From: Eubacteriales bacterium mix99
Lineage (GTDB): Bacteria > Bacillota > Clostridia > Caldicoprobacterales > DTU083
Assembly (NCBI GenBank): GCA_038396605.1
Contig: CP121690.1
Coordinates: forward strand, 124,001 to 188,000
Reading direction: 5' to 3'
DNA: 64,000 bases
The position numbers were made by a program, and so were the translations under genes. Below, one piece after another: positions 20,155 to 35,270 of the stretch. The notes under the pieces were generated by a model, which saw nothing but the letters and a program-made list of their open reading frames with translations, was not told the DNA's origin and did no database searches. Positions within the stretch are counted from its first letter, which is position 1. Every line of letters begins with the position of its first letter.

Positions 20155-20303
20155 TCCTCTCTGTCCGTTTTGGAATGGCCTCAGGGATCAGGAACATATT
20201 CTGCTTATATTATAATATAATCCCGAATAAACGGACAGATTGAATTTTTCATGTATCCATTGACTCTCCAATGCAATGCCATAAAGGCAGCTCAAAGCAG
20301 GAA

Positions 20304-20349
20304 TGAAAAAAGAGGCTGCAGCAATCTCATTATATCCTACAGCCTCTTT
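20304..20349 (-). terminator. Rho-independent terminator of aminotransferase/amidohydrolase operon
   Basis: On the minus strand AAAGAGGCTG, a 21-nt loop, CAGCCTCTTTTTT. It lies 92 bp after the stop of the Gfo/Idh gene at 20441 and closes the operon 24376-20441. Confidence 0.85.
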
Positions 20350-20440
20350 GCAAGACTCATCACTTTCGTTCTGTATGTCCCTGATTTCATGTCCCTGATT
20401 TCGCCTTTCCCGGAACGCAGGACAAGGCAATTACAGGCTT

Positions 20441-21475
20441 TCATGGAAGGAAGACCGGCTTTCCTGTCCGGGACGATTCATAAATAGCCGTAATGATCTC
20501 GATCGCCTTTCTGCCTTCATAAGCATCCACCGAAGGCTTTCTGTCCTCCCGGATGGCATGAACCATATCGCTGATCTGCTTTCTGTGCCCTTCGATGCCA
20601 AAATCGGTGGGGTTCCGCTCCGATTGATACTTTTTGCCTTTCGGACCGGCAAGAATCCCTTCCGGCGCTTCCTGTCCCTCGATCTCCCATTTGACAATGC
20701 TGTCTTCCTGCAGGGCAATGGTTCCATGGGTTCCGTTGACCTCCAGCACCCGCGGGAATCCCGGATAGATCGACGTGGTTCCCTGTATGGTGCCCACAGC
20801 ACCATTTTCAAATTCCAACACAGCCGCCGCGGAATCCTCCACTTCGATGTCCCTTGCCAGTGTTTTGGCATAGGCAAAAACCGACTTCACATCGCCCATA
20901 ATATACTGAAGCAGGTCAATCCCATGGATTCCCTGGTTCATCAGCGCTCCGCCCCCGTCCATGGCCCAGGTCCCTCTCCAGCTGCTGCTGTCGTAATATT
21001 CCTGGGAACGATAATATTTCATATACAGGTTTCCCATCACCAATTTCCCGGGCAATCCCTGATCCACGGCATCCTTCATCCTGGATACCGCCTCGGTGAA
21101 CCGCAGCTGGGAGATCACCGTAAGCTTGACATAATTCCTGTCACAGGCACGGATGATCTGATCCGCCTGTTCAAGATTCAGGGCCATGGGCTTTTCCACG
21201 ATAATATGTTTGCCGGCATCGGCTGCCTGTACTGCCATGGAAGAATGCAAACCGCTGGGAGTACAGATGCAGACGACATCGATGTCCCTGCACGCGAGCA
21301 TCTGCTCATAGGTATCAAAGGCAACAATCCCGAACTTCCCTGCAAACTTTTCCCTGGAATCCTGATTTCGATCCGTGGCTCCCACCAGGACAATCCCTTC
21401 GATCCCGGAAATAGCCCTGGCATGCCATTCCGATATGACGCCGCATCCCACAATACCGAATCCGAGCTTTTTCAT
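20441..21475 (-). CDS. Gfo/Idh/MocA-family oxidoreductase
   Basis: A 344-aa NAD(P)-dependent sugar or cyclitol dehydrogenase. The Rossmann start is MKKLGFGIVGCGVISEWHAR; the catalytic motif HIIVEKPMALN (EKP) is intact; the C-terminal alpha/beta domain has SWRGTWAMDGGGALMNQGIH, where the GGG-x(6)-H pattern carries the catalytic His. Last gene of a four-gene operon with a DegT aminotransferase and two amidohydrolases. In known pathways (for example NtdA/NtdC for kanosamine) a Gfo/Idh enzyme makes a keto-sugar that a DegT enzyme aminates; a similar division of labour is plausible here but is inference. Confidence 0.9.
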   Translation of the reverse strand: MKKLGFGIVGCGVISEWHARAISGIEGIVLVGATDRNQDSREKFAGKFGIVAFDTYEQMLACRDIDVVCICTPSGLHSSMAVQAADAGKHIIVEKPMALNLEQADQIIRACDRNYVKLTVISQLRFTEAVSRMKDAVDQGLPGKLVMGNLYMKYYRSQEYYDSSSWRGTWAMDGGGALMNQGIHGIDLLQYIMGDVKSVFAYAKTLARDIEVEDSAAAVLEFENGAVGTIQGTTSIYPGFPRVLEVNGTHGTIALQEDSIVKWEIEGQEAPEGILAGPKGKKYQSERNPTDFGIEGHRKQISDMVHAIREDRKPSVDAYEGRKAIEIITAIYESSRTGKPVFLP

Positions 21476-21512
21476 TGGATTGGCCTCCCTCCTTTCCTCA
21501 CTTCAATCTTTT

Positions 21513-22322
21513 TTAATCTTTGCTTCCGCCCTCTGCCCTTTGATCCAGAATGCGCTGCATATTCCCGCCGAAAATATCCTTTTTCTCCTCTTCCCCGATC
21601 TCTGCCATGCCTACCCTTCCAAAAGTCGGCCGGGGGTCCAGGAAAGGCATATCTGTCCCAAACAACACTTTTTTGGAGCCGATTTCCCTTACAAACCACT
21701 CCACATTGCCTTCATAGGCAGTGGAAACCGCGACATCCACATAAACATTGGCATGACGGCCGGCCACCTCCAGGGCATATCCCATGGAGAGTACATCCCC
21801 GCCGGCATGTGCCATAATGAACTGTGCATCCGGGTACCGATCGGACAGCCGATCAACATCCGCAACATTTTCTCTTCCCCATATGTGGATAAGAATCGGC
21901 AGTTTCCCCTTTTGCGCCGCCTCAAATGCGGCCGTGTAATTCGTGTTATCCACTGCCGAACCGTGGCAGGAAGGATGAAGCTTGATGCCGATAAATCCTT
22001 TCACCGGCAGGCACCTTCGAATCTCCTGCTCCATATCTTCCGGATAATTGGGATTCACGGTCACATAGCCCAGAAACCGATCCGGATAACGGGCTACGGC
22101 ATCCATTACCATATCGTTTCCAAAATGATAATCCGGTCCGATGGAGGAGTGGGCGGTTACACAGACCTTGTCAATGCCAAGCCGGTTCATCCCGGAAAGC
22201 ATCCCTTCTGCGGAAGGATCCGGGATATGAAAGGCTTTCCACAGCCCGATATGATTATGGCAATCGATAACAGGAATTTCATGAAGGGGCAGCCCTTTTT
22301 TCACATAATCCGCAATGCTCAT
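21513..22322 (-). CDS. Amidohydrolase_2 family metal-dependent hydrolase (all ligands present)
   Basis: A 269-aa TIM-barrel hydrolase of the ACMSD/amidohydrolase_2 type. The expected metal ligands are present: HxH in IDCHNHIG (about residues 20-25), His in PILIHIWGREN, His in QFIMAHAGGD and Asp in VLFGTDMPFLDPRP. Its ATG overlaps the stop of the upstream amidohydrolase gene (ATGA), so the two are translationally coupled. The upstream partner lacks all these ligands, suggesting an active/inactive pair. Possible reactions are hydrolysis of a lactone, amide or ring, or decarboxylation; the sequence does not decide. Confidence 0.88.
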   Translation of the reverse strand: MSIADYVKKGLPLHEIPVIDCHNHIGLWKAFHIPDPSAEGMLSGMNRLGIDKVCVTAHSSIGPDYHFGNDMVMDAVARYPDRFLGYVTVNPNYPEDMEQEIRRCLPVKGFIGIKLHPSCHGSAVDNTNYTAAFEAAQKGKLPILIHIWGRENVADVDRLSDRYPDAQFIMAHAGGDVLSMGYALEVAGRHANVYVDVAVSTAYEGNVEWFVREIGSKKVLFGTDMPFLDPRPTFGRVGMAEIGEEEKKDIFGGNMQRILDQRAEGGSKD

Positions 22323-23080
22323 GCCTGCCTCACTCCCTTCAGCAGATTCTCCAGATTTTTATAGGCGATTTCCCGTTTCTCCTCTTCGCTGATTTGCGCG
22401 TAGTTTATCATGCTCACTGCCCCGGAGCCGGAGAATACCGGCATTCCGCTTCCGAATATCAGCCGTCGGGCGCCGAACCGCCTGCAGATTGCTTCGATTC
22501 CCCCGTATACTTTGTATCCGTATGTCTCCAGAAACAAATGATCGTGCTTTTCCAGCATGGCATACAGATTCCGGTCAATCCGATAATTCACATTTGTCAG
22601 AATGACATTCAGCTGCGGATGCCGGCTGAGCAGTTCCTGCAGATCATTCCAGGCAGTCTGCTCCATACCAAGAAGCAAAGGAACTCTTTGCTCCTCCAGC
22701 ATGCCATATAACCCGCCGCAGTTCCACTCCGCCATACTGTATGTCTGATCCGCAGCGCCGGGAAACATAGTAACCGCCTGAATCGCATTTTCCTTCATCC
22801 GTCTTGCCAGCTCATCCGGTTCAGGAAACTCCCCGGTATGATGAGGCATGACAGCCCACACCGGAATCAGGGAAGGAATCCCCTGAACCGCTTCCATCAG
22901 CATCTGATTCCCTGCCTCCGGATTGTATTCCTGCGCCATGCTATGATACACCAGTGCCTTTTCAATCCCGCAGGACTTCATCTTCCTTATCAGGTCTTCC
23001 TTCTGATAAAAGGAACCGGGATATCGGATACTCCGCATCCCAAAGGAACAATGGCAGTCAAAAAATTTCAATGAATCCAT
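22319..23080 (-). CDS. Degenerate amidohydrolase_2 paralogue (metal ligands lost)
   Basis: A 253-aa protein with the amidohydrolase_2 fold pattern but none of the metal site: the HxH position reads FDCHCSFG, the beta-5 His region reads PLLLGMEQTAW, the beta-6 region NVILTNVNYRID, and the final GTD becomes LIFGSGMPVFSG. The reading frame is intact and it overlaps the following active paralogue by 4 bp, so it is maintained rather than decaying. It may be a scaffold or regulatory partner, or a metal-independent enzyme. The cysteine in the x position of HxH is shared with the degenerate paralogue at 27237. Confidence 0.82.
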   Translation of the reverse strand: MDSLKFFDCHCSFGMRSIRYPGSFYQKEDLIRKMKSCGIEKALVYHSMAQEYNPEAGNQMLMEAVQGIPSLIPVWAVMPHHTGEFPEPDELARRMKENAIQAVTMFPGAADQTYSMAEWNCGGLYGMLEEQRVPLLLGMEQTAWNDLQELLSRHPQLNVILTNVNYRIDRNLYAMLEKHDHLFLETYGYKVYGGIEAICRRFGARRLIFGSGMPVFSGSGAVSMINYAQISEEEKREIAYKNLENLLKGVRQA

Positions 23081-23116
23081 TCCCCTTTCTCTTCTTCCTC
23101 TGGTCCATAGCCCTTT

Positions 23117-24376
23117 TTATACCAGGTGCCTCATAACCTTACGGACTGCCGTCACCACATCCTCCACGTCCCGGTCGGTAAACGCCGGGCTCAGGCTGAT
23201 CGAGGCAGATCTCGGCATGATGTTCCATGCATTCGGACACATATCCCTGGTATATTCAATTTCCTCATCGAATTGGTTAAACGGGAACCCCTTTTTGTCC
23301 GCTGTCTTCTTGTCAAAAATCTGAGGCATCATATAAATCGGCTCGCCGTTATACAAAAGACCGGTGGAGATTCCTTCCCCGTTCATTGCCTCCCGGAACT
23401 TTGCAGCAATTTCCGTATCCGGCAGGAGCAGAATCAGCGCATTGCCCGCGTCTCCCTTTTCATCATTGATCCTTCGGAACCCAATGCCGTCAATATCCCT
23501 GATCTGTTCCTTGATTTGATATTTGATCCGATGCATGGAGCTCACAATATAATCCATCTTCTTTACTTGCTCGAGAGCGACCGCGCCGGTAATCTCGCTC
23601 ATCCTGTAATTTTGCCCGATGAACACATCATCCGCTGCGTTTTTGGACAGAAAGCCTTCTTTTTCCCGGAACATTCCCTGGTCATGATATCGGACTGCCC
23701 TTTCATACAGCTTTGCATCCTTTGTGGTCACCGCTCCCCCGTCTCCGGTGGTCAGAATCTTGTTGATCTGCAGGCTGAAACAATTGATTTCCCCAAAGGT
23801 ACCGGAATATTGATCCCGATATTTGGAACCGCAGGACTGCGCCACGTCTTCGATCACCATTAGATGATACTTCTTTGCAACCTCCATGATCCGGTCCATC
23901 TGACACGGATTGCCGAGGATGGGTACGGGCATAATGGCCTTTGTGTATTTGTCCACCACTTTGCCGATGGAATCCGGATCGATGTTCATGCTTTCATCAA
24001 TATCCGCAAATACCGGAACGGCTCCCGCGCATACGACAGCTCCCGCTGACGCAATAAAGGTACAGGCCGGAACGATCACCTTGTCTCCGGGGCCGATACC
24101 CGCCGCTTTCATGGCTACAATAAGGGATGCGGTTCCTGATGTTACGCCCAATGTATATGGATTGCCTATTTTTTCAGAGAATGCTTTCTCAAATGCCCTG
24201 GCTTTCCCCAGTACATGAGGGCCGTAATAACGATAAGGCGATTTGCTGTCGATCACTTCCGTCACCGACCGCTTCTCTTCCTCCCCGTAAACACTGGCTC
24301 CGGGATAGGGCATCGGCACAGGCGTCTTGCGGACCGGCTCCCCTCCATCAATGGCTAATTTATTCGGATCCGACAT
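23117..24376 (-). CDS. DegT/DnrJ/EryC1/StrS-family PLP aminotransferase
   Basis: A 419-aa sugar or cyclitol aminotransferase. Start 24376 (MSDPNKLAIDGGEPVRKTP) follows AAAGGGG; the frame is open 13 codons further but without a ribosome site. Features: VTSGTASLIVAMKAAGIGPG (phosphate-binding region), DVAQSCGSKYRD (PLP-contacting Asp region), and Schiff-base Lys in SLQINKILTTGDGGAVTT. First gene of the operon that continues with two amidohydrolases and a Gfo/Idh dehydrogenase. A TATAAT box lies about 55 bp upstream of the ATG, with no good -35. Not clearly assignable to biosynthesis or catabolism. Confidence 0.9.
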   Translation of the reverse strand: MSDPNKLAIDGGEPVRKTPVPMPYPGASVYGEEEKRSVTEVIDSKSPYRYYGPHVLGKARAFEKAFSEKIGNPYTLGVTSGTASLIVAMKAAGIGPGDKVIVPACTFIASAGAVVCAGAVPVFADIDESMNIDPDSIGKVVDKYTKAIMPVPILGNPCQMDRIMEVAKKYHLMVIEDVAQSCGSKYRDQYSGTFGEINCFSLQINKILTTGDGGAVTTKDAKLYERAVRYHDQGMFREKEGFLSKNAADDVFIGQNYRMSEITGAVALEQVKKMDYIVSSMHRIKYQIKEQIRDIDGIGFRRINDEKGDAGNALILLLPDTEIAAKFREAMNGEGISTGLLYNGEPIYMMPQIFDKKTADKKGFPFNQFDEEIEYTRDMCPNAWNIMPRSASISLSPAFTDRDVEDVVTAVRKVMRHLV

Positions 24377-24886
24377 ATGGACAATCCCCTTTCTATATAC
24401 TTTGTATACTTCCATACTTCTGATTATCTTCCTTTATTATACCTCCGGATTTCCCGGATTCCTTTGCATATTTTTCATTTGTATTGACCATTTCTATAAA
24501 TATTCCGGCGATCTTTCTTCCATTTAACGGATAGTTGTACTTCTCTTACAGAATCTACCTTTTTTCGGTTGCAATTTGCAAAGAAAACATATATGATATA
24601 GATAGCAGGATAAATAGAAGAAAACCATAAAGTAAGTGAGACATCCATCCAAAATAAGTTTTCATCAGAATTATGGCCATCGCTGCTGTTTTAAGCAAGA
24701 TCGTCCTGGAAGACACCTGATTTATTTCCATCAGTATCTGTATGCCATGGCAGAGCCTGGCGCTCTGCAGACTGCAGGACATTACGATATAATCCATTTA
24801 TTTTTGATTCCGGTGGAATGGAAACTAGGGAATATTTCTATATTTTTGTTTCCTTTCCCGGACCGCATACGGCAGCCCGGAATACG
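24377..24886. other. Gap with no recognisable gene
   Basis: About 510 bp between the divergent aminotransferase operon and the ATP-grasp remnant. The right half probably once carried more of the ATP-grasp gene, but I could not recover a recognisable stretch in any plus frame. Short open frames exist on both strands; none resembles a known family. The left 60 bp carries a minus-strand TATAAT (ggTATAATaaagg) that may drive the aminotransferase operon. Confidence 0.4.
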
Positions 24887-25123
24887 AAAAGCATTAAGAT
24901 AATTACAGAGGAAGTGTGTGGTGACAAATGTGAAGGCAAGGATCCGCATTTCCGCATTATCGGTTGGGATTTTTCCGTTGATGAGTTGGGAGATCCTGTG
25001 CTGATCGAATACAACGGTGCCCCCGGAATGAACCAGATCAGCCGCGGCCCGCTTTTCGGGGACCTGACCGAACCGGCTTTAAATACGATATTTTTACATG
25101 CAGATGAGTTACGGAATATTTGA
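24887..25123 (+). pseudogene. C-terminal remnant of a sugar-transfer-associated ATP-grasp protein
   Basis: The last 78 codons match the end of ATP-grasp enzymes of the sugar-transfer-associated type: DPHFRIIGWDFSVDELG, then DPVLIEYNGAPGMNQI (metal-binding Glu and Asn of ATP-grasp) and GPLFGDLTEPALN. The N-terminal roughly 250 residues expected for the family, including the ATP-binding lysines and the Gly-rich loop, are missing, and the frame upstream carries no family pattern. It lies 47 bp before the opine-dehydrogenase-like gene, suggesting the two were once an operon, perhaps joining an amino acid to another group. Identification rests on remembered family motifs. Confidence 0.6.
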
Positions 25124-25170
25124 GTTGCAGGGCAACTTCAAATAAATACAAAACCAGAAAGGATGGTACC

Positions 25171-26304
25171 ATGAATATTTCTGTTTTAGGTGCAGGCAAC
25201 TGCGGGACATCGGTCGCTGCGGACTTGAGCCGTCGGGGCCATGAGGTGACATTGATCAAAACATCCCATGCCATGCACGATCAAAATTTCAATGCCCTTC
25301 TGAAAAATGGCGGTATGGTAAAAATTTGCGAAAAGGAAAAAACGACAACGGTCAAAATAAGCCACGTTACCAGGGACCTCTCCCGCATCAGCGAAAGCGA
25401 TCTGATACTCATTCTGATCCAGACCAATTACCATGAAGATCTGATCCGGCACATCAAGCCATATCTTCATGATGGCCAGATCCTCCTGATCAATCCGGGC
25501 TACCTTTCCACGGCTTATGTCCTGAAGCATTGCCCGAACATCGATCTGACCATCTGTGAGGCGCAGAGCGCTTTTATTGATTGCCGGATCAGCGAACCGG
25601 GCGAGATCAGGGTTGGCTTTCGAAATGTCCGCAATCCCATCGGAATCTATCCGGCAAAGCATGCCAGGAAAGCAAAGGATACGCTGAATACACTGGGATT
25701 TCCTTTTGTCTATCTCCCCTCTGTCCTCGAAGCCGCCCTTCATAATCCCAATCTCATTGTCCATACAGTGGGAGCTGTTATGAGTATCCCCCGTATTGAA
25801 AAAACCAATGGGGAGTACTGCATGTATCATGAGGTTTTCACCCCCGGTGTCTGGCGCATTCTTGAGTCATTGGACGGGGAAAAAATGGATGTGATGGAGA
25901 GACTGGGGTGTGAACGTCTTTCCTATGTGGAAGCCTGCAAGTACCGGAACACCCTGGATGACACCAGAGACGCCAAGGAGGTTTTCTTTTGGTACGCCGC
26001 CATGCCTACACGGGCAAAGGGACCGGTTACAGTGGACTCCCGATATATTTCAGAGGATGTGCCACAGGGACTTGTGCTGCTTGAAACTCTGGGGGAAAAG
26101 TTCCGGATCGGGACCCCCATCTGCAGCTCCCTGATCAATATGGCCTCCGCAGCGCTGGGACGCGATCTGAGGCTGGAAGGCAGAACATTGGACCGTCTGG
26201 GGGAGGATATCGTAAAGCGCATTATCAGGGATAAAAAAGGCGGTTCCAGGCTGCGTCTGCCAGAGCAGGCTCCTTATGGAACTGCAAGCGAATCCACACT
26301 GTGA
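25171..26304 (+). CDS. Opine (octopine/nopaline)-dehydrogenase-like oxidoreductase
   Basis: A 377-aa NAD(P)-dependent enzyme. ATG 25171 follows AGAAAGGA; the Rossmann fold begins at once (MNISVLGAGNCGTSVAADLS). The helical C-terminal domain carries AALHNPNLIVHTVGAVMSIP, the conserved HNPN/His region of opine dehydrogenases that holds the catalytic His, and a long central helix VMERLGCERLSYVEACKYRN. Opine dehydrogenases condense or split an amino acid and a 2-oxo acid. It stands between an ATP-grasp remnant and a pair of amidohydrolases, and opposite an aminotransferase operon. The C-terminus RDKKGGSRLRLPEQAPYG is basic and unremarkable. Substrate unknown. Confidence 0.82.
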   Translation: MNISVLGAGNCGTSVAADLSRRGHEVTLIKTSHAMHDQNFNALLKNGGMVKICEKEKTTTVKISHVTRDLSRISESDLILILIQTNYHEDLIRHIKPYLHDGQILLINPGYLSTAYVLKHCPNIDLTICEAQSAFIDCRISEPGEIRVGFRNVRNPIGIYPAKHARKAKDTLNTLGFPFVYLPSVLEAALHNPNLIVHTVGAVMSIPRIEKTNGEYCMYHEVFTPGVWRILESLDGEKMDVMERLGCERLSYVEACKYRNTLDDTRDAKEVFFWYAAMPTRAKGPVTVDSRYISEDVPQGLVLLETLGEKFRIGTPICSSLINMASAALGRDLRLEGRTLDRLGEDIVKRIIRDKKGGSRLRLPEQAPYGTASESTL

Positions 26305-26476
26305 TGCCCACACGATAACGCGTACCCGCCGGAAACGCAGCGGAATTTTCTCCATGGCAAAAGCCATTTTATAGCAGGACTGTCATAAAAAATATCAAGG
26401 AAAAAGCATACCATGCAAACAATCCGGGTGATTTCTGATATATAATGATAGCAACAGAGCAGAAAGGAGTTTTGCC

Positions 26477-27211
26477 ATGCTGATTGACGTACATGCTCAT
26501 ATCTGGAAGGGAAAATATGAGCAGGATAAACGGAATATTGTAAAAGCCTGCAGGTTATATGGTATTTCACGGATATATATCTCCGGACTGGGCTCTCAAC
26601 AACCGGATGAACAGGAAGTAAAAGAAGTGAATGCCGAAGTGCATCAGTTTATGAAGGAAGAAAAGGACCTGGTAAGAGGGTACTGTTCCATAAACCCGGC
26701 AAATAAAAATTGCCTGGATACCCTGAAACAGGGTATTGAGGAATATGGAATGTCCGGAATGAAACTTTGGGTTGCCACATTTTGCGATGACCCAAGGGTA
26801 TACCCATTGATTGAACAATGCATCCAATATGATGTTCCCATTCTGATTCATGCTTTTCATAAAGCCGTAGGCCAGCTCCCTTTCGAATCCCATAGCTGGA
26901 ATGTGGCGAATCTGGCCCGAAGATACCCGGAAGCCCGGATTATCATGGCCCATATGGCCGCGAACTGCTACACCGGGCTGAAACCGATCCGGGATCTTGA
27001 CAATGTCTGGACCGACTTCTCGGGGACCATCATCCGTGGGGAAGATATCAACTACGCAAAGGAAACCATCGGGGCAAAGCGGATCCTGTATGGCACAGAT
27101 ATGCCGGGGGCCTCTCCGCTGGTCTGCATGGGCCAGGTGGAGGAGGCAGATCTGACTCCGGAGGAAAAGGAACAGATTTTCTATAAAAATGCCATGGATC
27201 TATTCCAATAA
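26477..27211 (+). CDS. Amidohydrolase_2 family metal-dependent hydrolase (all ligands present)
   Basis: A 244-aa TIM-barrel hydrolase with a complete metal site: MLIDVHAHIWKG (HxH), PILIHAFHKAVGQ, RIIMAHMAANCYTG and ILYGTDMPGASP. AAAGGAG lies 7 nt before the ATG. It is followed 25 bp later by a paralogue without these ligands. This is the same active-plus-degenerate arrangement as at 21513-23080, here on the other strand and with the active member first. Together with the opine dehydrogenase upstream it may form a plus-strand operon ending at the terminator at 28084. Confidence 0.88.
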   Translation: MLIDVHAHIWKGKYEQDKRNIVKACRLYGISRIYISGLGSQQPDEQEVKEVNAEVHQFMKEEKDLVRGYCSINPANKNCLDTLKQGIEEYGMSGMKLWVATFCDDPRVYPLIEQCIQYDVPILIHAFHKAVGQLPFESHSWNVANLARRYPEARIIMAHMAANCYTGLKPIRDLDNVWTDFSGTIIRGEDINYAKETIGAKRILYGTDMPGASPLVCMGQVEEADLTPEEKEQIFYKNAMDLFQ

Positions 27212-27236
27212 GGGCAAAGCATTGGAGGAGTGTTTT

Positions 27237-28001
27237 TTGAAAGCCATAGATATGAACTGCTATATCGGAAACTGGCCTTTTCGGAGGCTGCGTCGGAACA
27301 GCATGGAGGATCTGAAACGCATTCATGCGGAAAATGGTATCGAATCCGGCTATGTCTCTTCCCTGAACAGCATCTTTTACAACGATCCCTATGAAGGGGA
27401 AAAAGAGCTTCAGGAAGCCCTGACGGGGACATCCTATCAGCATGTCATGACGCTGAATCCCCTTCTGCCGGTATGGGAGCAGGATATACACAGGGCAGAA
27501 AAGGAAATGAATATCAGGGGAATCAAAATATTCCCGGGATACCATGGATACTCTTTACAGGAGAAATCGGCTGATAGGCTGTACCGGGCCTTGGAAAGCT
27601 CCGGACTGCCCCTGCTTGTTGTTGTCCGGATGGAAGACGAACGGTTGAACTACCTCATGACGCCAAGACAGCTTTCTGCAGAGGAAATCTGCAGTTTTAT
27701 CCGGAAACACGACGGAGACGTCCCCATCGTCCTGATCGGCATGCTTGCCGCAGAGCTCATGACATGCGGGGATGCCATCCGGAAAGCCCGGAATGTCTAT
27801 TTCGATACTTCCGGACTTCGCAACTTTTTCGATACGGAAAACCTGGTGGAAACCTTTGGAGCAGACAAAATTCTTTACGGCTCCCAATTTCCGCTGTATT
27901 GTTTGAAAAGCTCTTTCCTTATGACAGATAAGGCGCGAATCGATGAAAAGGACAGGGAAAAAATATTTTGTGGGAATGCCCGGCGCCTGATGCCGGAGTA
28001 A
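27237..28001 (+). CDS. Degenerate amidohydrolase_2 paralogue (metal ligands lost)
   Basis: A 254-aa protein if it starts at TTG 27237, which has GGAGGAG 6 nt upstream; an ATG at 27189 in the same frame would overlap the previous gene and has no ribosome site. The metal positions are all changed: AIDMNCYIGNWPFRR instead of HxH, PLLVVVRMEDER, VPIVLIGMLAAE, and KILYGSQFPLYC instead of GTD. The fold pattern is otherwise kept. It is the counterpart of the protein at 22319, with which it shares the D-x-[HN]-C-x-[FI]-G start. Function unknown; a structural partner for the preceding hydrolase is the simplest idea. Confidence 0.82.
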   Translation: MKAIDMNCYIGNWPFRRLRRNSMEDLKRIHAENGIESGYVSSLNSIFYNDPYEGEKELQEALTGTSYQHVMTLNPLLPVWEQDIHRAEKEMNIRGIKIFPGYHGYSLQEKSADRLYRALESSGLPLLVVVRMEDERLNYLMTPRQLSAEEICSFIRKHDGDVPIVLIGMLAAELMTCGDAIRKARNVYFDTSGLRNFFDTENLVETFGADKILYGSQFPLYCLKSSFLMTDKARIDEKDREKIFCGNARRLMPE

Positions 28002-28083
28002 GGAATACCTGTGCAGGTAAATCAATACAGACGCGTGCTGCCAACGGATATCTGAAATAAAACAGACATCAGATCATATATGA

Positions 28084-28126
28084 CAGTGCCGCGACCCTGT
28101 CTGGGTCACGGCGCTGCTTTTCATTT
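28084..28126 (+). terminator. Rho-independent terminator after amidohydrolase pair
   Basis: A 14-bp stem with one mismatch (CAGTGCCGCGACCC with GGGTCACGGCGCTG), a 5-nt loop, then CTTTTCATTT. It lies 83 bp after the stop of the degenerate amidohydrolase gene. Confidence 0.8.
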
Positions 28127-28283
28127 GATGCATACCCGTATGCCAATACTCCTATTCATTACTGTTTGGATATTATCTTTTCCGGTATTCCTCCGATACT
28201 CTTCCTTCTACCATTTCAGCTGCTTCAGGAACTCTGTATTTATGGAACTGTCGTACCGGATCCCGGCAGAACCGGAAAGCCCT

Positions 28284-28318
28284 AAAAAAACGGGTCGCTT
28301 CCCCGCCGGAAACAACCC
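28284..28318 (-). terminator. Rho-independent terminator after the SBP remnant
   Basis: On the minus strand GGGTTGTTTCC pairs with GGGAAGCGACCC (including G-U pairs) and is followed by GTTTTTTT. It lies just after the stop of the broken SBP gene at 28329, so the old operon end is still in place. Confidence 0.85.
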
Positions 28319-28328
28319 ACTTTTCGGT

Positions 28329-28944
28329 CTATCTCTTTTGCCATCTGTCATAGGCATCCTGGTAGATCCCAATCACCTCATCCATTCCCATGTGGTTCAC
28401 TTCCTGTACGTAACTGTCCCACTCCGTCATTGGCTTGTTGCCGATGATGAAATTCACCAGGGATTCATCCACATAAGTTTCAATGTCGTTCAGCTTCTGA
28501 CTGATGACATCGTTTTCCTTCTCGGTAAAGGACAATCCGGGAACCATGGGCTGAACAAACTGATCCTGGTCACGATATTGCTTTCTGCCTTCCTCCACAT
28601 AGTCTTCCACGGTTGACGAAGTCAGGCTCCAGGGCTGAAATATCGCAGGCCATGTGCTTCTTCCAAAAGTCACTGCTCCCCGGGCTTCATTCATCGTCAG
28701 TCCGTCCGGATTCTTCAGCACAAAGTCCGTCCACTGCGGTTCTCCCTTGTCGTCAATGGTATAAGTTACGTTTTCCACACCGTAGACATAGGTCTGACCG
28801 ACTTTACCATACCAATAATCTGCCCACATGGCAGTTTCCTCCGGGTGTTTGTTGGAAGCGGATATGGCCATGGCGTTGGGAACGACCTCATTATCCGGCC
28901 ACATATGGAATTGATCTCCATAAGGTCCCTTTATAATGGGGGCT
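28329..28944 (-). pseudogene. C-terminal remnant of a sugar-binding lipoprotein
   Basis: The last about 205 codons of an SBP family 1 gene, starting in EAPIIKGPYGDQFHMW and ending GIYQDAYDRWQKR. Strong similarity to the last third of the SBP at 1027 (KGPHGDQFH, WADYWY, QWTDF-LKNPDG, GRS-WP). The signal peptide, lipobox and N-terminal lobe are missing. Upstream it abuts the head of a permease gene in a different frame (junction about 28944-28955), so it cannot be translated as part of that protein. A product made from an internal ATG would have no export signal. The frame shows no other damage, suggesting a recent deletion. Confidence 0.88.
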
Positions 28945-29491
28945 TCCCGTACTTTGGATCCGCAAGGAAATGAATCGGCTTTCCCCCGAACATTTCAATC
29001 AGATGGTTGATCATGCCTGTGCTGGGAGACAGGAAGGAGATCAGCATGCCGCAAATTACCACTACGGAAATGAAGTGAGGCATATAAACAATTGTCTGAA
29101 TGCCGCGTTTCAGGCGATTTCCCTGGATTTCATTGATCAGCAGTGCCAGAAGGACTGGTATGGGAAATCCCACCACCAGATCATAAAGATTAATCAGTAT
29201 GGTATTCCGTACCAGACGCCAGGCATAATGAGATTCGAAAAAAGCCCTGAAATGCTTCAGGCCAGCCCATGGGCTGCCCATTATCCCCTTATAGGCATTG
29301 AAATCCTTAAAAGCAATGGTCAAACCATACATGGGCAGATAATGAAAGATAAAGAAATATACAATCACCGGCAGAATCATCAGATACAAATACCTGGAAT
29401 CATACAGACGCTTCATGGAATACGAAACCCGTCCTGTTTTTTGAACTCCGCCCTTTCCCATGCGGTTTTTTTCGGTTGCCGCTTCCCTCAT
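28945..29491 (-). pseudogene. N-terminal remnant of an LplB-type permease
   Basis: About 180 codons of an LplB permease starting MREAATEKNRMGKG (GAGGAG and AAAGGG upstream), with YLMILPVIVYFFIFHYLPMY, GLTIAFKDFNAYKGI and INHLIEMFGGKPIHFLADPK. It stops exactly where the SBP remnant begins; the EAA loop and last membrane segments are lost. Past the junction the frame runs a few codons (GKPPL) to a stop. Because full-length neighbours have the order LplB-LplC-SBP, the simplest history is a single deletion of roughly 3 kb that removed the permease tail, the whole LplC gene and the SBP head. Confidence 0.88.
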
Positions 29492-32194: not shown

Positions 32195-33052
32195 CTAAAG
32201 CACCAACTTCTGCGCATTCCCTGAATAAATCTTCTGAAGGACTGCGTCCGGCAATCCAAGCCCGTTCAGAAACTCCTGATGGATATTGTCGAAATAATCC
32301 CTCCCGTAAAGAATTCGGTCCTGAAACTCCACAAGAAATTTTTTGGCAAACTCAGAATCCCGTTTCAGGGCATTGCATCCGGAACCTGCGGAAATATCAC
32401 AGTACAGATTGGGATAAGTGTGCAGCATATCGATCAGCTTCCCGCCCGGTACAACCTTTCCGGTGGGATATGCGGTCTTATTGTACTGATTGTCTCCGGA
32501 AATATGTGCCCAGAAACCCGGCGCATGCCCCAGAAAAATCGTTCCCGGACAGGCCCGTATGGCTCGTTCGAAGGCATCGATCCCTCCGCCGTACCACCAG
32601 TTCGGACGGGGATACCGGCTTTTGGCGGGAAACTCATAGTCGATATGAACCACTACCGGCAGACCTCTCTCTCCGCAAAACTGATACATACGGATCGCAT
32701 CCGGATTGTCGTACATCATGCGCAGCTTGATCTCGCCGCAAACCCGCACTCCATAAATGCTGACAGCCGCCTGAAGCTGATCGATGGCCTCCGGCCGCCT
32801 GGGGTCGGGAGCATATCCCAGAATGAATTTTTCCGGTGCACGCTCGTAGTAGGAAAGGCACCGGCTGAAAGGCACCGGTCCATGAGGCCCCACTTCCGGA
32901 GTGCAGCTGTAGTAGCTGGGATCATACTCATCTGCAGGAGTCTCCCAGCTGAGCAGCCAGGTCTTATCAATGTGATATCGTTTCATATTATCCAGAAACC
33001 GGGACAGATCGTGTCCGTGCCAGTCGGGATGATTATGGGCGTCAATGATCAT
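32195..33052 (-). CDS. Amidohydrolase_2 family metal-dependent hydrolase
   Basis: A 285-aa TIM-barrel hydrolase with intact ligands: MIIDAHNHPDWHG (HxH), LPVVVHIDYEFP, TIFLGHAPGFWAH and ILYGRDYFDN (Asp). Its ATG overlaps the stop of the aminotransferase gene (ATGA). Unlike the two other amidohydrolase/aminotransferase neighbourhoods here it has no degenerate partner. Aromatic residues after the HxH and around RPNWWYGGGIDAF may form the substrate pocket (inference). Third gene of the AraC / DegT / amidohydrolase operon ending at the terminator at 32051. Confidence 0.88.
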   Translation of the reverse strand: MIIDAHNHPDWHGHDLSRFLDNMKRYHIDKTWLLSWETPADEYDPSYYSCTPEVGPHGPVPFSRCLSYYERAPEKFILGYAPDPRRPEAIDQLQAAVSIYGVRVCGEIKLRMMYDNPDAIRMYQFCGERGLPVVVHIDYEFPAKSRYPRPNWWYGGGIDAFERAIRACPGTIFLGHAPGFWAHISGDNQYNKTAYPTGKVVPGGKLIDMLHTYPNLYCDISAGSGCNALKRDSEFAKKFLVEFQDRILYGRDYFDNIHQEFLNGLGLPDAVLQKIYSGNAQKLVL

Positions 33053-34299
33053 AGCTTTTTCCCTTGATAATATTGTGCCACTTTTCTGATGGCCTGCACG
33101 GTTTCCTCCGCGTCCTCTTCCGTATAGAACTCATTGACCGAAATCCGAACCGCCGTATCCAGGATTTCCTCGGCCACCGGGCACAATCCCTTGTAATACC
33201 GGACATCCTTTCCATAATACTTGCAGTCAAAAGGACATTTTGTTCCATTATAGGCATTCCGATTCAGGAACATATCGTATTCATACACACAAGCCGGAAT
33301 ATATCCCGGCTGATTGGGCACCCCTTCCGCTGCCAGAGCCTTTGAGAATTCATCCCGGCTGACTCCCGCTTCCCTTTCATTGATGCGGAACATATAGAAC
33401 CAATACGAGCTCTTGTTCCCTTCCTCTATTTTGGGAATGTAGATTCCAGGCAGATCCTTGATTCCTTCACTGATCCGGGTCCCATATGCATTTCTCTGTT
33501 CACAGATGAACGAAAGCCGGTCCAGCTGAGCCAGGCCTACTGCCGCCTGCAGTTCACTCATGCGATAATTGGGGGCAAGGAATTCAATTCTTCGTGTTGC
33601 CGCCGGATCTTTCGAGAACCGGTTGTAGTTCTTGTCTGCAAAGCGGAACGCCCGTTCAAAAAGATCCTGATCATTCATAATGCACATGCCGCCGTCCCCG
33701 GAGGAAATATGCTTGTAATCATTCAGGCTGAAGCATCCGATGTCACCGATTGTCCCCACCAGTTTTCCCTTGTAATAGGTGAGGTAGCTCTGGGCACAGT
33801 CCTCAATGACCCTGACATTGTGTTTCCTGGCAATGTCCATAATGGCGTCCATATCTGCTGCGTTTCCGGCCAGATGAACCACAACAATGGCTTTTGTTTT
33901 GTCTGTGATTTTTTCTTCCACGGATTTGGGATCCAGGTTATAGGTATGAGGATCCAGATCGGCAAAGATCGGAATGGCATTCTGATACAGGATTCCAATG
34001 ATCGATCCCATATCGGTAACCGGAGAAGTGATGACTTCGTCTCCCGCCGTGATCCCCAGGGCACCAAGAGCCACATGAATCGAAGCAGTGCCGGACGATG
34101 TGGTGACACAATGCTTCACCCCATACATATCCGAAAACCTCTCGCAGAATTGCCTTGCTTTGTTTCCGGACCAGTAAAACAAGGTATTCTGGTCCAGAGC
34201 CTCCTTCAGATAGCGAAGTTCTTCATCTCCGAACCGTTTTCCGGATCCATACGGTGTCTTTTTCGTCTTTTCCCCGCCCAATAAAGCCAGCTTACTCAT
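33049..34299 (-). CDS. DegT/DnrJ/EryC1/StrS-family PLP aminotransferase
   Basis: A 416-aa sugar or cyclitol aminotransferase. ATG 34299 (MSKLALLGGEKTKKTPYGSG) overlaps the regulator's stop by 4 bp and follows GGGAGGA. Motifs: VTTSSGTASIHVALGALGI, EDCAQSYLTYYKG, and Schiff-base Lys in SLNDYKHISSGDGGMCIM. It is a second, diverged DegT protein relative to the one at 23117, with a different C-terminal part (CPFDCKYYGKDVRYYKGLCP). Translational coupling on both sides ties regulator, aminotransferase and hydrolase into one pathway. Confidence 0.9.
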   Translation of the reverse strand: MSKLALLGGEKTKKTPYGSGKRFGDEELRYLKEALDQNTLFYWSGNKARQFCERFSDMYGVKHCVTTSSGTASIHVALGALGITAGDEVITSPVTDMGSIIGILYQNAIPIFADLDPHTYNLDPKSVEEKITDKTKAIVVVHLAGNAADMDAIMDIARKHNVRVIEDCAQSYLTYYKGKLVGTIGDIGCFSLNDYKHISSGDGGMCIMNDQDLFERAFRFADKNYNRFSKDPAATRRIEFLAPNYRMSELQAAVGLAQLDRLSFICEQRNAYGTRISEGIKDLPGIYIPKIEEGNKSSYWFYMFRINEREAGVSRDEFSKALAAEGVPNQPGYIPACVYEYDMFLNRNAYNGTKCPFDCKYYGKDVRYYKGLCPVAEEILDTAVRISVNEFYTEEDAEETVQAIRKVAQYYQGKKL

Positions 34300-35270
34300 A
34301 ATAAATCCTCCCTTTGAATGATTGGCGCTTTTTTTTCCATTCCATTTCCCCGGCAAATCTTTCGATAGGACAATGGAGGAATTCCAATTTGCTTTTTAAA
34401 AACCCTGTTAAAATGGTTTACGCTGTTAAAACCGATCTCATAACTGATATCCAGCACTTTTTTATCTGTCTCTTTCAGCAGCTGAAGTGCTTCGGAAATC
34501 CGATAGTCATTCAGGTATTCCGTAAATGTTTTCAAAGTGATGCTCTTAAAAAGATGACTGAAATAGGAGAAGGACAATGCAGATACTTTTGCGACCTCCT
34601 CCACTGTCAGATTGTCCGCATAGTGCTCATTGATGTAATGGATGGCCGTCAGAATCGCTTCCCTGTGGCGGTCATAAATCGTCTGCGTTTCGGACCCTTC
34701 CAGGTTCGTGGTGAATTCCCGGCCCACCAGAACCAGCAGCCGAAGAAGAAGGGATTTGATCAGCAGGATATAGCCCGGCTTCTTTTGCCGATATTCCTGA
34801 AACACCTCGTTCAGAATGGTCTCCACTTCAATCTGCAGCCTTCCAATCAGATTCAGCCTTGGCCTCACCATGTTCTCGCTGACCAGGAACGGTTCGATAT
34901 ATGCAAAGTCCAGAAACGATTCTGCATTCTCTATTTTGTCCATATTCTGATTGATAAACTGAGGTAAAAATTCAAATTCGTAAATTTGGGCAGAACAGTT
35001 CTTCGGCGCGGTGATCTTGTGGGGAATATAGGGCGGGATCACAAAGATATCACCTTTGATGATCTCAAACCTGTGATTGTTGATCACATGCTCCGCCTTT
35101 CCCTGGTAAACATAGTTTATCTGCATATACTCATGCCTGTGAAGCTCTTTTTCGGAATTTTCCAACCGGTATCTCGCTATAAAAAACGGCAGATCCCCGT
35201 TTGGGTTTTCACTCATTCGATACATCGGTATATTCTTATACTTTTCGTTATCCAGATCAACCAGTCTCAT
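34296..35270 (-). CDS. Cupin-AraC transcriptional regulator
   Basis: A 324-aa cytoplasmic regulator of the classic AraC layout: an N-terminal cupin (ELHRHEYMQINYVYQGKAEH; GDIFVIPPYIPHKI) that binds a small effector, and a C-terminal double HTH (ALSFSYFSHLFKSITLKTF; SYEIGFNSVNHFNRVFKKQ). TAGGAGGG precedes the ATG. It starts 45 bp after the glutamate dehydrogenase gene with no terminator between, and overlaps the aminotransferase gene by 4 bp. It likely autoregulates its operon in response to the pathway's substrate. Confidence 0.92.
   Translation of the reverse strand: MRLVDLDNEKYKNIPMYRMSENPNGDLPFFIARYRLENSEKELHRHEYMQINYVYQGKAEHVINNHRFEIIKGDIFVIPPYIPHKITAPKNCSAQIYEFEFLPQFINQNMDKIENAESFLDFAYIEPFLVSENMVRPRLNLIGRLQIEVETILNEVFQEYRQKKPGYILLIKSLLLRLLVLVGREFTTNLEGSETQTIYDRHREAILTAIHYINEHYADNLTVEEVAKVSALSFSYFSHLFKSITLKTFTEYLNDYRISEALQLLKETDKKVLDISYEIGFNSVNHFNRVFKKQIGIPPLSYRKICRGNGMEKKAPIIQREDLL

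Follow-up and report, generated by a model that had tools for sequence, protein, structure and literature searches.

Enzymes of the Amidohydro_2 family (PF04909; hereafter amidohydrolase_2) bind metal through a family-wide motif consisting of an HxH, two further His residues and an Asp. ACMSD (Pseudomonas fluorescens, 4ifk) and gamma-resorcylate decarboxylase (2dvt/3s4t) belong to this fold family. ACMSD is a homodimer whose metal ligands are named for the human enzyme in the available text of PMC9021598; this text, that of PMC11650718 and the title of PDB entry 4ifk describe the ACMSD monomer as inactive, because a substrate-binding Arg comes from the neighboring subunit. Heteromers of an active enzyme and a dead paralogue are already known from AdoMetDC and its prozyme in Trypanosoma brucei, which form an active heterodimer that works by allosteric relief of autoinhibition (PMC5201418, available text). 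The amidohydrolase superfamily provides a related case, since an inactive dihydroorotase homologue of Pseudomonas aeruginosa is needed for the activity of its ATCase partner (PMC7053772, available text). Here we analyzed a stretch of 64,000 nucleotides, referred to as the window, from Eubacteriales bacterium mix99 (contig CP121690.1, positions 124,001 to 188,000), whose genome is a single contig of 3.13 Mb. The window carries two operons that each pair an intact amidohydrolase_2 gene (A or C) with a ligandless paralogue (B or D). These pairs differ from ACMSD in that two genes, one of them ligandless, are kept together or fused in relatives, and from the pseudo-dihydroorotase system in that the partner is an active family paralogue rather than an unrelated ATCase; the AdoMetDC–prozyme system differs in both enzyme and organism. 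No description of a live/dead pair within amidohydrolase_2 was found in the open-licence PMC literature, a corpus without bioRxiv preprints and without the majority of subscription papers. From the comparative evidence presented below, we consider it probable that the product of each operon is a single heteromeric, metal-dependent enzyme of the amidohydrolase_2 type, composed of an intact barrel and an obligate ligandless sister.

Pair 1 lies on the minus strand, where B (22319-23080) precedes A (21513-22322) with a 4-bp ATGA overlap at 22319-22322. Pair 2 lies on the plus strand, where C (26477-27211) is followed by D (27237-28001) after a 25-bp gap (27212-27236). The start codon of D is a TTG at 27237, and an in-frame ATG is present at 27189. 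These coordinates, frames and spacings were all confirmed as given in the original prediction, which had been made from the letters alone. A, B, C and D scored 113.5, 33.6, 79.1 and 53.1 bits, respectively, against PF04909, all passing the Pfam gathering cut-off of 26.4, and an NCBIfam scan of B, C and D returned no family at E 0.01. The HxH/His/His/Asp ligand positions were typed with one hidden Markov model (HMM) for all family members. A and C both read HHHHD, in agreement with the intact metal sites proposed earlier for the genes at 21513 and 26477, and can be regarded as putative catalytic subunits. By contrast, the putative pseudo-subunits B and D read HSGNG and NYVGQ. The earlier claim that both paralogues had lost every metal ligand is thus accurate for D (5 of 5 lost) but not for B, which keeps the first His of HxH (DCHCS) and has lost four of the five.

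B and D were folded as single chains from six-row alignments of the window and L009 proteins. Both were predicted to form complete amidohydrolase_2 TIM barrels, with a predicted local distance difference test score (pLDDT) of 85 and predicted template modeling scores (pTM) of 0.88 and 0.87. The nearest solved folds were gamma-resorcylate and dihydroxybenzoate decarboxylases, 3cjp, 3irs and ACMSD; predicted B matched 3cjp with a Z score of 23.3, 3irs with 23.2 and ACMSD (4ifk) with 20.3. Sequence searches of the PDB revealed no close relative: the best matches were 3irs for the B-type profile A2 (E 6.4e-14) and 3cjp for the dead-clade profile A3 (E 1.4e-5), and phmmer gave one match for B (E 0.36) and a best match for D at E 0.0025. 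Viral contigs searched with profile A3 likewise contained no relative. Judged by sequence and predicted fold, B and D are members of the family and would not be metal enzymes of the known kind.

We searched for relatives of B and D in 291 genomes of the class, 299 genomes of the phylum and plasmid records, and for relatives of D only in 13 family genomes. Most of these genomes are drafts from Clostridia and the phylum to which they belong; the sampling of other phyla came only from plasmid records. Only the stronger matches were fetched with their flanks and typed, and pairing was judged on those; a domain had to fill at least 170 HMM columns to enter the pair count and the trees. The counted set (the window, L085-L089 and L125-L184) comprised 72 ligandless domains from 29 genomes, including the source genome, and from four named plasmid records (Subdoligranulum variabile, Nonomuraea gerenzanensis, Halomontanus rarus and Haloprofundus salinisoli). 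An intact paralogue was adjacent on the same strand or fused in 68 of these 72 cases. In the other four (L137, L144, L170 and L173), the contig stops where a partner would be expected, and L173 still retains the first 123 residues of the partner; these four were left out of the classes and mirror trees described below. Because the arrangement recurs in 68 of 72 ligandless domains and the remainder are cut by contig ends, pairing is more than chance. Among the 68 pairs, 57 were adjacent (25 with a 4-bp overlap) and 11 were fused. The intact partners read HHHHD in 64 cases and HHDHD in four, all four in fusions, while 54 of the paired dead domains retained no ligand and 14 retained one. Genomes searched later contributed three live/dead pairs in G595 and one in G589, whose proteins are the same as in G292. 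The weaker unpaired matches that were fetched and typed either read HHHHD or had ligands that were not all readable.

Several variants accompany these pairs. The HHDHD site, in which Asp replaces the beta5 His, occurs in the "intact" domain of the fusions L135, L149, L169 and L171 and of L141, which is cut by a contig end, and is possibly a changed metal site. Other tandem pairs combine HHHHD with HHENH (L102/L237), HHHHN (L095) or a second HHHHD (L110), and possibly represent intermediates toward a dead partner. Two genomes that share genus code g25 show a large expansion, each with many paralogous live/dead pairs and fusions: G023 (L125, L126, L136, L137, L153 and L169) and G061 (L129, L130, L134, L135, L138, L139, L142 and L170).

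Gene order followed the class of the ligandless domain. In class B, the dead gene preceded the intact one in 21 adjacent pairs, and all seven fusions were of the dead-N/intact-C form. The order was intact-then-dead in the 13 adjacent pairs of class D′, and its four fusions were all intact-N/dead-C; these are haloarchaeal, and each is annotated as a single coding sequence (CDS) named "amidohydrolase family protein". The same intact-N/dead-C form is repeated in three further haloarchaeal CDSs, from Natrononativus, Natronosalvus and Halosolutus. WP_276256065.1 and WP_224270999.1 are two examples of haloarchaeal fusions. Class D, which includes C and D of the window, comprised 17 intact-then-dead pairs and no fusion. 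The 11 fused proteins span bacteria and haloarchaea. Live and dead parts have been joined more than once, always in gene order, and we take this as the strongest indication from sequence that their products work together. Successive enzymes are commonly found fused, and adjacency and fusion would equally fit two enzymes of successive steps. The ligandless protein might then be a separate metal-free enzyme or a binding protein acting one step before or after its neighbor, the genes being mere pathway neighbors; the dead proteins of classes D and D′ keep polar residues after beta strands (H103, Y105 and others), which possibly line a pocket of their own. However, the adjacent or fused partner in the typed loci is an amidohydrolase_2 while the other neighbors vary between loci, the same pairing has been fused in both orders, and, at the cut-offs applied, just a single conserved polar column sets the dead domains of class B apart from their partners. 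We therefore regard a separate enzyme as unlikely.

Trees were built with the ligand motifs left out, and the 96-row tree also excluded two long rows, L177 and L088_5857. All 43 dead domains fell on one side of a branch with support 96/93, which was recovered in 98% of 200 bootstrap trees. The branch was kept when more rows were added, with support varying (96/83, and 85 in a quick tree). A larger quick tree placed 70 of 71 dead domains in one clade; the exception, L102_1498 (HHENH), is a separate partial loss. An approximately unbiased (AU) test did not reject a grouping of class-B dead domains with class-B intact domains (p = 0.221), so that a single origin of the ligandless domains is favored but not proven. 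Convergent ligand loss in two lineages is disfavored by the one-clade tree, although the AU result leaves room for a separate B-type origin. The argument built on two separate decays, put forward when the two pairs were first noticed, is thus probably wrong, as B and D share one clade.

The dead and live halves have similar histories. Mirror trees of 43 pairs gave a Mantel r of 0.76 (0.66 for the 21 dead-first pairs and 0.86 for the 22 intact-first pairs), and in each set none of 5000 shuffles was as high. The dead and live trees had 20 of 40 splits in common, where shuffling gave 0.18 on average and 2 at most, indicating that the two halves were inherited together through several classes. The ratio of nonsynonymous to synonymous substitution rates (dN/dS) was 0.084-0.149 for dead genes, in four unsaturated comparisons of which three were among the same three genomes, and 0.055-0.100 for intact genes in five comparisons. 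Mean column information in dead and live halves was 2.08 versus 2.13 in class B, 2.57 versus 2.66 in class D′ and 2.36 versus 2.76 in class D; the dead halves thus came near their partners in class B and class D′ but fell below them in class D. Together with dN/dS values of about 0.1, these figures indicate that the ligandless genes are maintained. Individual copies do break: G594 carries a truncated ligandless gene, with an open frame of 122 aa, beside an intact gene, and contig 56 of G309 carries a broken fusion (L236:3832-4902, plus strand) whose dead-domain front piece (169 aa) and live-domain end piece (162 aa) lie in separate frames. Nevertheless, purifying selection, the intact frames of the 68 paired cases, the spread over bacteria and archaea and the mirrored trees argue so strongly against decaying copies carried beside their parents that we reject this explanation as extremely improbable.

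The ligandless barrels carry a few residues of their own, located just after beta strands, where the barrel binds substrate, which suggests that the pseudo-subunit may complete its partner's site. In class B, Arg170 (22571-22573, minus strand), located after beta6 of B, is the sole polar position, with Lys and Arg merged, whose conservation reaches 80% in the dead halves and stays under 30% in the partners. Of the class-B dead domains, 25 of 28 have Arg there, compared with 2 of 28 partners, and the residue is a candidate trans-acting arginine. In D, His103 (27543-27545, plus strand), located after beta4, is conserved in dead domains, being His in all 17 class-D, all 17 class-D′ and 16 of 28 class-B members. 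Arg195 (27819-27821, plus strand), located after beta7, is a basic residue, Lys or Arg, in every one of the 17 class-D dead domains, but is not conserved in class D′; it is another candidate trans-acting residue. That B Arg170 and D His103 and Arg195 enter the partner's active site is plausible on these sequence patterns, if somewhat short of probable. A variant of the complex, not exclusive of this one, is that the whole effect of the pseudo-subunit is allosteric or on folding, and that it places no residue in the partner's site, as precedents such as the prozyme of AdoMetDC (PMC5201418, in its available text) and the pseudo-dihydroorotase of ATCase (PMC7053772, likewise) would allow. The position of the three dead-specific residues, where a contribution in trans would be expected, speaks weakly against this variant, which we consider a doubtful but serious possibility.

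Taken together, adjacency, fusions, mirrored trees and purifying selection strongly support the original proposal of a heteromeric enzyme with a dead subunit, a physical complex that we infer, as we do its reaction, from these comparisons and the predicted folds. The pair most likely had a single origin in a gene duplication, after which one copy lost its metal site. The ligandless copy would have replaced the second protomer of a dimer of the ACMSD/resorcylate-decarboxylase type; it would hold the dimer together and perhaps place residues in the partner's active site, as Arg239 of the neighboring subunit does in homodimeric ACMSD. More tentatively, we propose a composite enzyme in which one barrel would supply the metal and its ligandless sister the residues essential for binding the substrate, so that the active site would exist only at the interface. 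The asymmetry would then have arisen once from a homodimer and persisted through a change of gene order, several fusion events and dispersal among bacteria and archaea, and some "amidohydrolase family protein" entries of Clostridia, Actinomycetota and haloarchaea would be halves or fused wholes.

Several observations weigh against these interpretations. Apart from the fit of adjacency and fusion to successive enzymes, the AU result and the damaged copies in G594 and G309, the equivalence of B Arg170 to ACMSD Arg239 is unsupported, the former lying at +7 from the lost beta6 ligand position and the latter at +11 from His228, and Arg170 is missing from the D types. In the wider family, certain intact members occur singly and are presumably functional without a partner. 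Ligandless members outside the paired clade, namely the 3irs-like proteins and three genes in G523, also lack a paired partner. BB4693 (3irs) gave the top PDB sequence hit for the B-type profile, and its fold is one of those nearest to B. Unlike B and D, the BB4693-like proteins cluster with intact members that have no partner (99/95), and none of the four regions read, of 130 records matched, contained a second family member. Plasmid-borne 3irs-like relatives (L185-L187) are without most metal ligands, and two of them read DFRIRPP/DFRLRPP in place of HxH. In G523 (L235:1821-5629, plus strand, beside L112), three consecutive ligandless genes are followed by an intact gene about 1 kb further; the trio groups with unpaired intact members outside the dead clade (95, quick tree) and was not counted in the 72. 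No lone member was seen within the paired clade among the fetched matches, whereas lone ligandless members do exist outside it. Ligand loss alone therefore does not imply a partner, and pairing is a trait of this clade.

Both B and D have a Cys at the x position of HxH, which had been taken as a possible sign of a new Cys-based chemistry. The shared Cys is real in the two window proteins and occurs in 14 of 17 class-D dead domains. However, it is not a general mark of the clade: of the paired ligandless domains, 64 have a residue at that position, and it is Cys in only 26; none of the 17 class-D′ domains has the Cys, and 6 of 68 intact partners carry it as well. On this pattern of conservation, Cys-based chemistry is unsupported and was rejected as very improbable.

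In the window, the gene upstream of B, at a distance of 36 bp, encodes a DegT/DnrJ/EryC1 aminotransferase (23117-24415, minus strand), and the gene downstream of A, at 37 bp, encodes a Gfo/Idh/MocA oxidoreductase (20441-21475, minus strand). With these spacings and the ATGA overlap between B and A, the four genes look like a single operon. An octopine-dehydrogenase-like gene is located upstream of pair 2. We compared the context of pair loci with that of 20 control loci of unpaired intact members, which had been picked for looking unpaired, and so have no partner by selection; they serve to compare context only and to show intact members standing alone. A DegT aminotransferase was present in 15 of 61 pair loci and in 0 of 20 control loci; for Gfo/Idh/MocA dehydrogenases, the corresponding figures were 10 of 61 and 1 of 20. 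The control loci were longer on average (16.8 versus 12.0 kb), a bias that runs counter to the difference. Permeases of ATP-binding cassette (ABC) transporters, heparinase-like genes (4 loci) and SIS-domain genes (3 loci) also recurred in pair loci. From such neighbors (aminotransferase, Gfo/Idh/MocA and sugar ABC transporters), our guess is that the pathway is one of sugar or amino-sugar catabolism. In G595, both pairs lie back to back, 191 bp apart, and a relative of a third, unpaired amidohydrolase_2 of the window (32195-33052, minus strand) lies nearby, so that both operons of the window may act in a single pathway; in L231, such a relative is located near both pairs. In the window, this third gene overlaps by 4 bp with a second DegT aminotransferase gene (33049-34356, minus strand).

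Other features of the window include a 70-residue stretch at 24911-25120 (plus strand) whose front part is missing and which resembles the end of the sugar-transfer ATP-grasp family PF14397 (26.3 bits, under the cut-off of 31.4); it looks like a gene remnant. A short piece resembling, by eye, a solute-binding protein (28329-28904, minus strand) adjoins a short permease-like piece (28931-29491, minus strand), as if an ABC transporter operon had suffered an internal deletion; neither piece had a Pfam match at 0.01. A promoter scan of 20200-28400 gave 6 promoter-like sites, below the shuffle mean of 12.0, and a terminator scan of the same region gave 10 compared with 8.2 in shuffles, no clear excess; neither result was used as evidence. 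An Rfam scan at gathering scores and a tRNA scan found nothing in the window.

If the proposed heteromer is correct, this branch of a large enzyme family, which is uncharacterized, would not be assayable gene by gene, since what is annotated as an enzyme would be half of one. The separate genes and the fusions in both orders would provide a natural series for following how a symmetric dimer turns into a division of labor between a catalytic and a dead subunit. The residues named above would be the ones to mutate, and ligandless paralogues in such operons would be parts of an enzyme, not debris.

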